Notes under the pieces: model-generated
The model's database searches: none
What the model was told of the DNA's origin: nothing
The model's input: only the letters and a program-made list of their open reading frames with translations
In this document: piece by piece, positions 5,142-17,309 of the stretch
Layout of the letters: each line of letters starts with the position of its first letter
Numbering within the stretch: position 1 is the first letter of the stretch
Made by a program: the position numbers and the translations under genes
Source: a virus
Length of the DNA: 24,308 bases
IMG/VR virus record: IMGVR_UViG_3300042887_002679
Coordinates: 1-24,308 of that record
Reading direction: 5' to 3' (one strand)

Positions 5142-8100
5142 ATGACAAAACAGATAATTGAAATTGGCACACAAGGTAACGACGGAACCGGTGACAGCAT
5201 ACGCGAATCATTTCGTAAGGTTAATGAAAACTTTAACGATCTTTATGCAAGTTTTGGTATAGAAGGTAAATTAAAGTTCAAAGATTTGCAAGACGGGTGC
5301 GAATATGGTAATGGCGGTGTAATTATTGGTACTAATAACCCACTAACTGGCAGTACAACACTAACTGCAAAAACATTAGTAGCTACCGCTGGTGGAGGCA
5401 TTACGATTACTGCAACTGCTACTGAAATAGGATTTTCATTAGAAGGTAATGCAAAATTAGTCAATGATCAAACACCAACGTTAGGAGCACCTCTTGATGC
5501 AGGTGGGTTTAGTATTGGTCGTTTACGAGATCCTAGCATAGCTGCAGTAAATTACTTTAATTTAATATACGGCAACAGTAAACCGGAGATCACAATTGAT
5601 GATCTAGCAGTAAATGTAAGATATGCAAATAAAAATTACGTAAGAATGACAGCAGACGGAACAATTGGTATACTTGATGAAAATGGCACAGTAGTGCCTG
5701 CAACAATTAAATCAGGGCCTGAACCAACTGTGCCTGACACCACAAGTGTGTATTATGATCCTTCATTAACTGGTAATTATTTGTCAAATGAAGTAGTTCC
5801 TCGTAAAGGTGTAGTTTATCGCGGTGGCGACACCATGCAAGGACCGTTATACCTTAGTGATCACCCAGGTGCATTAGCCGGAACTGTTGGTGCAACGGGT
5901 AAAGAAGACCTACAGGCAGCAACTGCGTTCTATGTAGACAACAAAACCTTTTCAAGTACCGTCAATTTATATGTAGCAACTAGCGGTGACGACTTACAAT
6001 TAAAAACACCAAAAGGAAAAGAAGGTAGATTTTGGAATTATGCATTTAGTTCAATTAAATCAACCTTATTATATGCAGATTCGTTAATAACAGCTGCAAG
6101 TCAAGAGCCAGGACCATATAAACAGCGTATATCATACACTATTGGACCAAATACATCATTTTCAACTATTAAACGTGTATCGTTAACTGCTGGTAATACT
6201 GCAGTTGCTGGAAATGCGGGCTATATTGCTGCATTTAACTTATTGCAAGCAAACAAGTCGTTTATTCAAGCAGAAACAGTTGCGTATATCAATAAAAAAT
6301 ATGTTAATAAGTATGAATTTGTGCCAACTGCAACCACTCCCTCACTTAGCGAGTTAATAACTTCATTAATTGAAGATGTTAAAACTGATATTTTACTTGG
6401 TACACCAGCAGATGACGTAACATCACCGTCAGGTGTTCCTGGTACTAATTATAATTCGTACTGGAATGCAGTTTCATACATAAAAAATAACCCAACGTCT
6501 GAAGGATTGATTCAATGGGCGGCTGCGATTGACTTTGTAAAAGATCAATTTATTGATCTCTCATATGATTCTAATAAGTTATCAACATATACTGATCAAC
6601 TAGTTACTGCATTATCATATGATTTAATTTTTAAGTCAAATTATCTAAGTATTCAGACAGGTATTGCATTTAAAAATGCAGAAACTAATATCACTGCATC
6701 GCAATTGTCTGCAATGCTTTCAATTAATCCATATACTATATCATCTGCAGAAGGAACAGAATCATCTGTTACGTTGTATTTTGCAACTCAAACAACTAAT
6801 GTATATCCTGTTGGTTCTTGGATATTAATTGATGCAAAATTTAAACCTTCTAATATAATTAATAGTGAAATTATTATAACATCAATGCGTACTCCGGTGG
6901 GCGGAACTGCAATATTAAATCCTTTTCAAATAACTGCATCATCAACATCGTATGTTACATTTAATGTTGATCTACTTCGAGCACCGTTTAAAGTTGACAC
7001 TTATGAAGTAGTAGGTGTTACTGGCACTAATACTGTTGGTACATTTGATCGTAGAAATTTAATTAATCAACTATTATTAGTACCACTAGTAACTAGCACA
7101 CCTAATGCATCTTCATTAATTACCTCAAATGCAGCAACTATTCGTCAAATTGCAACAACCTCTGTAATACCGTCAGTTGTTATGCCTAAACCAATTAACC
7201 CTACAGCATTAGGCGTGTCGTATAATGCAATTGGTAGAGTAAGTGCAAATGAATTATTATTAACAAACATTCCATTTATTCAAGCAGAAGTAATTGCTTA
7301 CCTAAGTGCTAACTTCTCAGATGTTGTGTATGATAGGGATTTATGTTTGCGTGATGTAAAATATATTGTTTGGAGTTTAGCGTATGATATTTTGTATACC
7401 GGTAACAGTCAAAGTGCGTATATAGGTAAACAATTTTGGAATGGGGAAATTAGTTATTTTAATACCACAGTAATAACAACAGATTCTGAAAAATCTGCAT
7501 GTATCAAAGCTATTAATTATATTGGACAATTAGCAGTGTTGATTGTTGATAATGTATCATATGAAGGGCACTATCAGCAATCAGTTAGACAGTATAAAAA
7601 CGACACGTTAGAAAATGGCGGCGGAACTGCAATCATTACTGATATTAATACAAATATTTCATTGATTAACTCAATTATAACGCTTAAAACAAATTATCCA
7701 GCATCACCTACTTTTCCAGTTGCATTATCAGGTGATCCAGCGTTATACACAATATATACAAATTTAACCAATGCAAAACTAGATTTTACAAACAGTTTAT
7801 TAGATACATCGACTGTAAAATTTATGAATATGTTCTATCCGGTAATTACTAGTACAGCATACATTAACAAGATCTCTGCACTGTTTACGTTTATCAAAAC
7901 TACTATTGTAAAAGGTACATATCCTACCGAGTTTCCAACATATCCTAATATACCAGTAGCCGTAAATGCAAATGTGTTAAGAGGATCAGTATCTGTTAAT
8001 ATTACCAATACAATGGTGTCAACAGCTAGAACTATTTTAACAGCTGCTATGACTACAATATGTGCAGATGTTCATACATATATGGGAGCTAGTCATTCTA

Positions 8101-17100: not shown

Positions 17101-17309
17101 CAGTAAGTTATATTAACAATAGCGCAACACATAGTTATAATGGCACAGAAGTTGAAACTCCAGATGTAGTAGTTACAATTCCAACTAACGTGAATATGAT
17201 GAAACTTGGGAACGGAACTGGTGCACAATATATTGGTAGAATTGCGTATTATGCAAAACGATTAACAGATGTTGAAACAACTGCTATTACATCATCAATA
17301 CAGGAATAA
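5142..17309 (+). CDS. giant modular phage tail-fibre / virion structural protein, 4055 aa
   Basis: Residues 1-40 hold the virion-anchor type motif [16 protein letters not shown]...NENFNDLY. About 215-330 has a [10 protein letters not shown] segment and a [14 protein letters not shown] segment known from marine T4-like phage fibres. Helical modules of the form RDVxYIVxxxxYDxLxGxNxQS recur near 480-520, 708-768, 1000, 1114-1172, 1808-1840 and 1915-1981. A beta-helix-like region begins near 1360 ([16 protein letters not shown]) and resumes at 1626-1710 ([18 protein letters not shown]). GGSGY-type Gly repeats lie near 2084-2163 and 2926-3003. The conserved block around 3173-3307 contains [36 protein letters not shown] and STDSTMTDN. 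The C-terminus (3690-4055) is a [17 protein letters not shown] module plus a LamG-like sandwich, probably the receptor-binding tip. The start is supported by AAAGGGG and a late promoter. It is exceptionally long for a fibre. The family call is firm; the receptor is unknown. Confidence 0.88.
6580..11080 (+). repeat. six diverged copies of a ~60-aa helical module inside the giant fibre
   Basis: The copies share the pattern (R)D(V/L)xxIVxAxxYDxLxGxNxQSxxxGxxF. The clearest are [20 protein letters not shown] (about residues 726-745), [20 protein letters not shown] (about 1136-1155) and [20 protein letters not shown] (about 1950-1969). Weaker copies lie near 490-520, 995-1025 and 1808-1840. Most are preceded by an amphipathic (F)IxxExxAY helix. 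They are separated by Ser/Thr-rich beta stretches of unequal length. The copies are too diverged at the DNA level for recent duplication. Confidence 0.65.
16206..17306 (+). other. C-terminal receptor-binding-type module of the giant fibre (TFTRAS module plus LamG-like domain)
   Basis: About residues 3690-3760 read [20 protein letters not shown], then [12 protein letters not shown] and [15 protein letters not shown]. This mobile module is found near the ends of many unrelated phage tail fibres and spikes. A carbohydrate-binding-like beta domain (about 3760-3880, ending in [15 protein letters not shown]) follows, then a concanavalin/LamG-like sandwich to the C-terminus ([15 protein letters not shown] is the usual closing strand). 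No autocleavage chaperone follows. Confidence 0.75.

Follow-up and report, generated by a model that had tools for sequence, protein, structure and literature searches.

The window, a 24,308-base virus record analysed over its whole length, carries at 5142-17309 on the + strand one intact open reading frame of 12.2 kb, which runs from ATG to TAA with zero internal stops, encodes 4,055 amino acids and has a Shine-Dalgarno-like AGAAAGGGG upstream of its ATG. At the base composition of the window, 4,055 open codons would arise by chance with a probability of ~10^-132. Two genes follow on the same strand, a fibre with a C-terminal chaperone domain and an fn3-repeat protein that runs off the window end and has homologues in contigs L002, L003 and L006-L008. 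Upstream, 925-3282 (-) encodes what is probably a surface or virion protein of 785 aa, in which He_PIG Ig-like domains and, weakly, CBM_5_12 were matched, and 3817-4350 (+) encodes a QueD-like 6-pyruvoyl-tetrahydropterin synthase (PF01242, 99 bits). The features of the giant gene and of its downstream neighbours are as follows.

5142..17309, + strand: giant fibre open reading frame, 4,055 aa (translation, collinear homologues)
5142..5285, + strand: T4 gp9/gp10-type N-terminal baseplate-anchor motif, residues 1-48 (PF07880; PDB profile search)
6216..6491, + strand: helical module 1, divergent, residues 359-450 (module HMM iE 1.2e-14)
6468..6776, + strand: helical module 2, divergent, residues 443-545 (module HMM iE 2.4e-22)
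7233..7580, + strand: helical module 3, residues 698-813, with CLRD, the sole CXRD in the window (module HMM iE 3.7e-34)
8010..8237, + strand: helical module 4, residues 957-1032 (module HMM iE 3.9e-16)
8445..8759, + strand: helical module 5, residues 1102-1206, with YYRD (module HMM iE 7.6e-28)
9219..9581, + strand: predicted beta-helix, first part, residues 1360-1480 (conserved in all homologues; present in the Mosig, P-SSM2 and S-CAM3 fibres)
9942..10421, + strand: predicted beta-helix, second part, residues 1601-1760 (homologue and cyanophage/pelagiphage alignment; homologue model)
10425..10757, + strand: helical module 6, residues 1762-1872, with AKRD, inside the beta-helix (HMM; AlphaFold2 helices; insertion relative to Mosig)
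10857..11354, + strand: helical module 7 with its last helix, residues 1906-2071, with SERD (AlphaFold2 model against phycobiliproteins)
11388..11636, + strand: Gly-rich stretch 1, residues 2083-2165 (sequence; low occupancy in homologues)
11724..12581, + strand: predicted beta-helix, third part, plus the conserved region after it, residues 2195-2480 (50-75% identity in homologues; match in S-SSM7 and Mosig)
13896..14141, + strand: Gly-rich stretch 2, GGSGY-type, ~residues 2919-3000 (sequence)
14589..15131, + strand: conserved block, residues 3150-3330 (shared with fibres of cyanophages and pelagiphages)
15132..16172, + strand: stalk-like region, residues 3331-3677 (conserved as far as the tip-exchange point)
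16173..17306, + strand: receptor-binding-type end, residues 3678-4055 (PHROG 5939; RcGTA head spike 6tb9)
17350..18603, + strand: downstream fibre with C-terminal Peptidase_S74 chaperone, 417 aa (PF13884, 59 bits; PHROG tail families)
18603..24308, + strand: downstream fn3-repeat protein, at least 1,902 aa, with a Gly-rich end (PF00041, 8 stretches)

At the N-terminus, PF07880 (T4_gp9_10_N) matched residues 3-41 with 31.7 bits against a cut-off of 25, over profile positions 1-39 of 175 only, and the same family was matched in 13/13 homologues. A profile of the anchor searched against the PDB found T4 gp10 (E 2.6e-5) and gp9 (E 3e-4). This type of N-terminus also starts smaller neighbouring fibre genes in many loci; given this recurrence it is probably a common docking signal of baseplate-attached proteins. 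The gene after the giant fibre begins with the motif in L010, L012, L014, L018, L021, L046 and others, and such smaller genes often overlap the stop codon of the giant fibre. At the other end of the protein, the conserved block has a mean column identity of 66%, cyanophages included. The receptor-binding-type end matches a PHROG tail protein family (PHROG 5939, E 3.9e-62) and has a relative in the head spike of the Rhodobacter gene transfer agent (6tb9, E 5.7e-15); in Synechococcus phage ACG-2014j it is a separate gene of 389 aa. Two unrelated types of C-terminal tip occur, the window-type end in six proteins (window included) and a Peptidase_G2-like end in seven. An earlier sequence-only reading had proposed a single fibre protein with an anchor motif, Gly-repeat domains (here the two Gly-rich beta stretches), a conserved structural block and a receptor-binding-type end, and each of these was found.

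A scan of viral contigs with residues ~2221-3120 gave 23 loci on contigs that are often fragments. At least 12 of them carry one open reading frame of 3,290-4,452 aa that aligns with the window's protein from end to end, at 40-52% identity over the aligned positions; the frame is thus a real gene along its whole length, and the single intact frame of 4055 residues reported earlier holds. Residues 1-40, 201-400, 690-760, 1121-1200, 1281-1480, 1601-1760, 2201-2480, 3121-3320 and 3401-3560 are well conserved, and the stretches between them vary in length among the homologues. The gene for a gp23-type major capsid protein is present on two long homologue-bearing contigs, of 372 and 223 kb, and absent from the window, a 24-kb fragment. 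The sequence-only reading had considered the protein exceptional in size, against a usual limit of ~1500 residues for such fibres. That limit fails for this phage group, as isolated cyanophages have module-bearing proteins of 4,446 (P-HM1 gp7), 4,107 (DSL-LC03 gp7), 4,063, 4,017, 3,779 and 3,673 aa. Homologues of like length and order, sought as a refutation of unusualness, exist in the collinear proteins of the other aquatic virus contigs, so the size is ordinary for the group. Proteins this large can be virion components, since the long tail fibre of the isolated cyanophage S-CREM2, ~4,971 aa from its coordinates (42559-57474), was detected in virions with 286 unique peptides (PMC10665884).

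The helical modules were located with an iterated profile of 111 positions. That such modules exist was read correctly from the sequence, but their count was given as six, and the profile finds seven copies in the window (module 7 by profile alone spans residues 1906-2017) and up to 13 in one relative. The largest protein seen, a single 5,616-aa frame with 22 helical modules, lies at ~30-45 kb of G059, the gp23-selected, uncultured contig of L309. Among 50,697 phage records, 388 carry modules, all but one named as cyanophages; a search of plasmids with a module of the homologue L117 gave no match. Neither Pfam nor NCBIfam has a dedicated model for the modules, and PHROGs gave no family for the modules, the beta-helix or the block of the window's protein. 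The modules have diverged too far to be sought with a degenerate sequence pattern.

To identify the fold, two structures were predicted without templates. In an AlphaFold2 model of residues 1290-2485 the mean pLDDT was 51.9, with modules 6-7 mostly at 70-90 and all-helical. Foldseek on this model returned mainly phycobiliproteins (E 0.05-0.6, probability mostly 0.8-1.0), and VIA-align of model residues 615-782 (protein residues 1904-2071) against phycobiliproteins gave Z values of 14.3-15.9, with 2.2-2.8 A over 124-139 residues for many chains. A second model, of the compact homologue L117 (44 sequences, pLDDT 81.3, pTM 0.72), contains two module-type domains, of which the first aligned at Z 14.0-15.7 and the second lies within the beta-helix. 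Its alignment to phycobiliproteins begins at chain residue 27-35 (X/Y helix region), where the modelled slice also began. Across both models, Z was 14.0-15.9 with 2.0-2.8 A over 120-142 residues for many chains (typically ~2.3 A over ~135 residues), covering helices A-H of the globin-like alpha fold, and for each model the best 50 VIA-align entries were all phycobiliproteins or a bacterial paralogue. Amongst sequence profiles, PF00502 (Phycobilisome) matched 7/56 modules (best 4.2e-5), and 28/31 matches of the modules in a PDB profile search were phycobiliproteins, mostly phycocyanin alpha, at weak E-values (best 0.05). When 35 related records were searched in six frames, every one of the 25 PF00502 matches (E <=0.01) fell in module-type frames of 3,103-5,616 aa, and four records were over the cut-off. 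The helical modules are therefore predicted to be phycobiliprotein-fold (bilin-binding globin) domains, with support from both Pfam and PDB sequence profiles. It is very unlikely that they are instead an unrelated helical bundle that resembles phycobiliproteins by convergence. The window's own protein gave no PF00502 match in Pfam, the PDB E-values are those of a faint similarity, and chance can give helical bundles high Z values; however, two independent models agree over most of the domain, the PF00502 matches are confined to long module-type frames, and the CXRDxGY motif is in register with phycocyanin. The sequence-only reading did not see this likeness, and a literature search outside subscription journals and preprints returned nothing to the point on phycobiliprotein or globin domains in phage fibres; the predicted identity of the modules is the new point here.

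The beta-helix was assigned from the L117 model, which matches GH110 beta-helices, the window's slice being modelled poorly outside the modules. The structure search of predicted models with Foldseek thus leads from the modules to phycobiliproteins and from the beta-helix, which had also been named from the sequence, to GH110. A sequence search of the whole window protein against the PDB and a profile search of residues 1290-2485 against the PDB found nothing, and residues 2195-2480 had no relative in bacterial and archaeal genomes.

Comparison of the domain order with cyanophages and pelagiphages showed the same sequence of beta-helix then block. The short cyanophage and pelagiphage homologues (1,090-1,477 aa) have the beta-helix and block only, and the fibres of P-SSM2, S-CAM3 and Mosig carry beta-helix parts and the block without modules in that protein. 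In pelagiphage Mosig, the segment matching residues 1651-1702 is directly followed by the one matching 2199-2298 (696 to 701); compared with Mosig, residues 1703-2198, modules 6-7 included, are therefore an insertion. This reverses the proposal that beta domains had been inserted between conserved helical modules: the modules were inserted into a conserved beta-helix frame. Amongst 80 further loci we found a series of architectures, from beta-helix and block, through one module before or inside the beta-helix and then two, to the five-plus-two arrangement of the window; their lengths range from 1,090 aa up to 4,466 aa or more, and the modules occupy several sites. The nearest relative of a module in another contig lies at the same position in 88% of cases, against 12% expected, and most module positions are thus old. 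In L051 several extra modules are most like each other, which indicates a later tandem duplication. A 3,640-aa relative at L102:3366-14288 has two copies of the beta-helix and block unit, which looks like a duplication of the entire core. With insertions at fixed sites, the architecture series and a swapped tip, the mosaic character suggested by the sequence-only reading is upheld.

On this evidence the 4,055-residue protein is probably one giant polypeptide, a tail fibre from a lineage of T4-like aquatic phages, anchored to the baseplate, with phycobiliprotein-fold spacers and an exchangeable tip. The gp9/gp10-type N-terminus would dock the fibre, presumably as a trimer, to the baseplate wedge of the virion. 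An old core, comprising a right-handed beta-helix and the conserved C-terminal block and common to cyanophage and pelagiphage fibres, then received seven predicted phycobiliprotein-fold domains, mostly without the bilin-binding cysteine, both N-terminal to the beta-helix and inside it. These globin-type modules would serve as lateral or spacer domains, and the exchangeable C-terminal domain, of the RcGTA head-spike kind, would contact the host surface and bind a receptor. Growth of the protein would have proceeded by duplication and insertion of globin-type modules and by replacement of the tip.

Other readings of the same protein differ in where it acts, in its maturation and in what the modules do. 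The N-terminus, and the presence of the same modules in cyanophage proteins annotated as gp7 baseplate wedge, would also fit a baseplate wedge arm, a gp10/gp7-like scaffold rather than a host-binding fibre. We consider this unlikely, as the C-terminus is of a tail receptor-binding type and is exchanged between relatives, and the genes downstream are the S74-chaperone fibre and then the fn3-repeat protein. That the polypeptide is cut into pieces after translation is suggested by relatives that end in Peptidase_G2-like self-cleaving chaperone domains (in L017, 26.7 bits against a cut-off of 25) and by the S74 chaperone of the next gene. Cleavages of these types are known to release the C-terminal chaperone alone, however, and the window's protein has neither a G2-like nor an S74 domain; such processing is very unlikely.

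A quite unlikely reading for the modules themselves is that in cyanophages and some relatives they bind bilins via the CXRD cysteine, which would hold a linear tetrapyrrole from host or phage enzymes, giving a pigmented tail that could sense light or gain stability from the chromophore; in the window module 3 alone could do so. In a census of 343 distinct modules the CXRD cysteine was present in 176, being kept as a unit with RD (172/221 with RD, 4/122 without), against a cysteine content of 0.39% of residues outside the modules of the same proteins, and it was present in 24/25 alignable modules of the isolated cyanophage giants. Bacterial CXRD globins (BBAGs) need no lyase to bind bilins (PMC10151467). 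Amongst neighbourhood records chosen from match lists, not at random, the bilin-lyase-type gene cpeT is found upstream of the giant module-bearing fibre, at a distance of 1-4 genes, in S-PM2, Syn1, S-CAM3 and ACG-2014j, and no cpeT adjoins the module-less homologues in S-SM1, P-SSM4 and ACG-2014f. (Loci L343, L344, L345 and L346 are those with cpeT upstream of a giant short tail fibre.) Heme oxygenase and bilin reductase genes occur together in eight family contigs, adjacent in seven and ~1.7 kb apart in G019, and P-HM2, whose gp7 carries modules, does not adsorb in the dark (PMC7112961). Yet CXRD is found in just 1/7 modules of the window, the cysteine being lost in the other six, and it is rarer, not commoner, in several reductase-positive contigs. 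An association between modules and bilin-reductase genes was not supported, with modules in 10/28 reductase-selected contigs against 4/10 gp23-selected contigs (reductases 0/10); P-SSM2, S-SSM7 and Mosig have a reductase and no modules, and the cpeT of P-HM2 adjoins a module-less fibre. Phage cpeT and bilin reductases are, besides, usually explained as supporting the host antenna. As side observations, L142-L149 (contigs of L006, L008, L053, L115, L007, L087, L102 and L117) carry heme oxygenase with a PcyA/PcyX-type reductase and no psbA, the L147 pair lying ~1.7 kb apart. Overall, psbA was found in 0/23 family contigs, which is compatible with cyanobacterial hosts, since psbA is missing from cluster C cyanophages as well (PMC10665884). 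The literature calls the purpose of phage hemO and pcyA/X enigmatic (PMC11480375) and describes the roles of phage pcyA, pebS and cpeT as unresolved (PMC3037559). The broadest version of the proposal is that the tail and baseplate proteins of T4-like cyanophages and relatives are made from bilin-binding globin domains in repeated copies, which are chromophorylated in the virion with bilins of phage or host origin by a phage CpeT-type lyase whose gene adjoins that of the fibre; we give it very low probability, but if true a pigmented virion would explain the retained phage bilin genes and possibly light-dependent adsorption. We regard bilin binding by the modules, mainly in cyanophage relatives, as a testable possibility rather than a conclusion.

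The giant fibre is thus an intact member of a widespread aquatic family and of ordinary size for its group, and its interest lies in the predicted phycobiliprotein-fold modules within a beta-helix. Modules that occur in 388 or more records of isolated phages, almost exclusively cyanophages, are now identified as predicted domains of this fold. If they are purely structural, they would clearly exemplify a light-harvesting fold taken over for virus construction, in which the successive insertions into a beta-helix can still be followed; if some bind bilins, they would bear on the role of phage pcyA/pebS/pcyX and cpeT and on light-dependent cyanophage adsorption.

Compared with known systems, the fibre resembles T4 gp9 and gp10 in its N-terminal 40-50 residues and differs in everything after the anchor. 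Its modules share with phycobiliproteins and BBAGs the predicted fold and the RDxGY helix, and in many family members CXRD, but they sit in a phage fibre and 6/7 of those in the window have no cysteine. The C-terminal domain is like that of the RcGTA head spike Rcc01080 (6tb9), although here it would sit on a tail fibre and not on a head spike. The Kyanoviridae and pelagiphage fibres P-SSM2 PSSM2_301, S-SSM7_113, S-CAM3_161 and Mosig_63 share the beta-helix parts and the C-terminal block in the window's order, but are of 1,090-1,477 aa with another N-terminus (MAEFRLGR... and MADFKLGR... for the P-SSM2 and Mosig fibres, unlike the gp9/gp10 type), no helical modules and no exchangeable tip. The giant short-tail-fibre proteins of S-PM2, Syn1, S-CAM3 and ACG-2014j (T4-GC 734) and cyanophage gp7, of 3,673-4,446 aa, carry 1-6 of the same modules, and the short-tail-fibre group also has the block; they differ in N-terminus and module order, and almost always keep CXRD. 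In S-PM2 (L346:10557-15384) a tRNA gene cluster is annotated on the same strand inside the giant fibre coding region. WJZ47903 of Synechococcus phage DSL-LC03 (3,161 aa) has modules, beta-helix and block in the window's order, but with three modules, another N-terminus and a long, different C-terminal extension.
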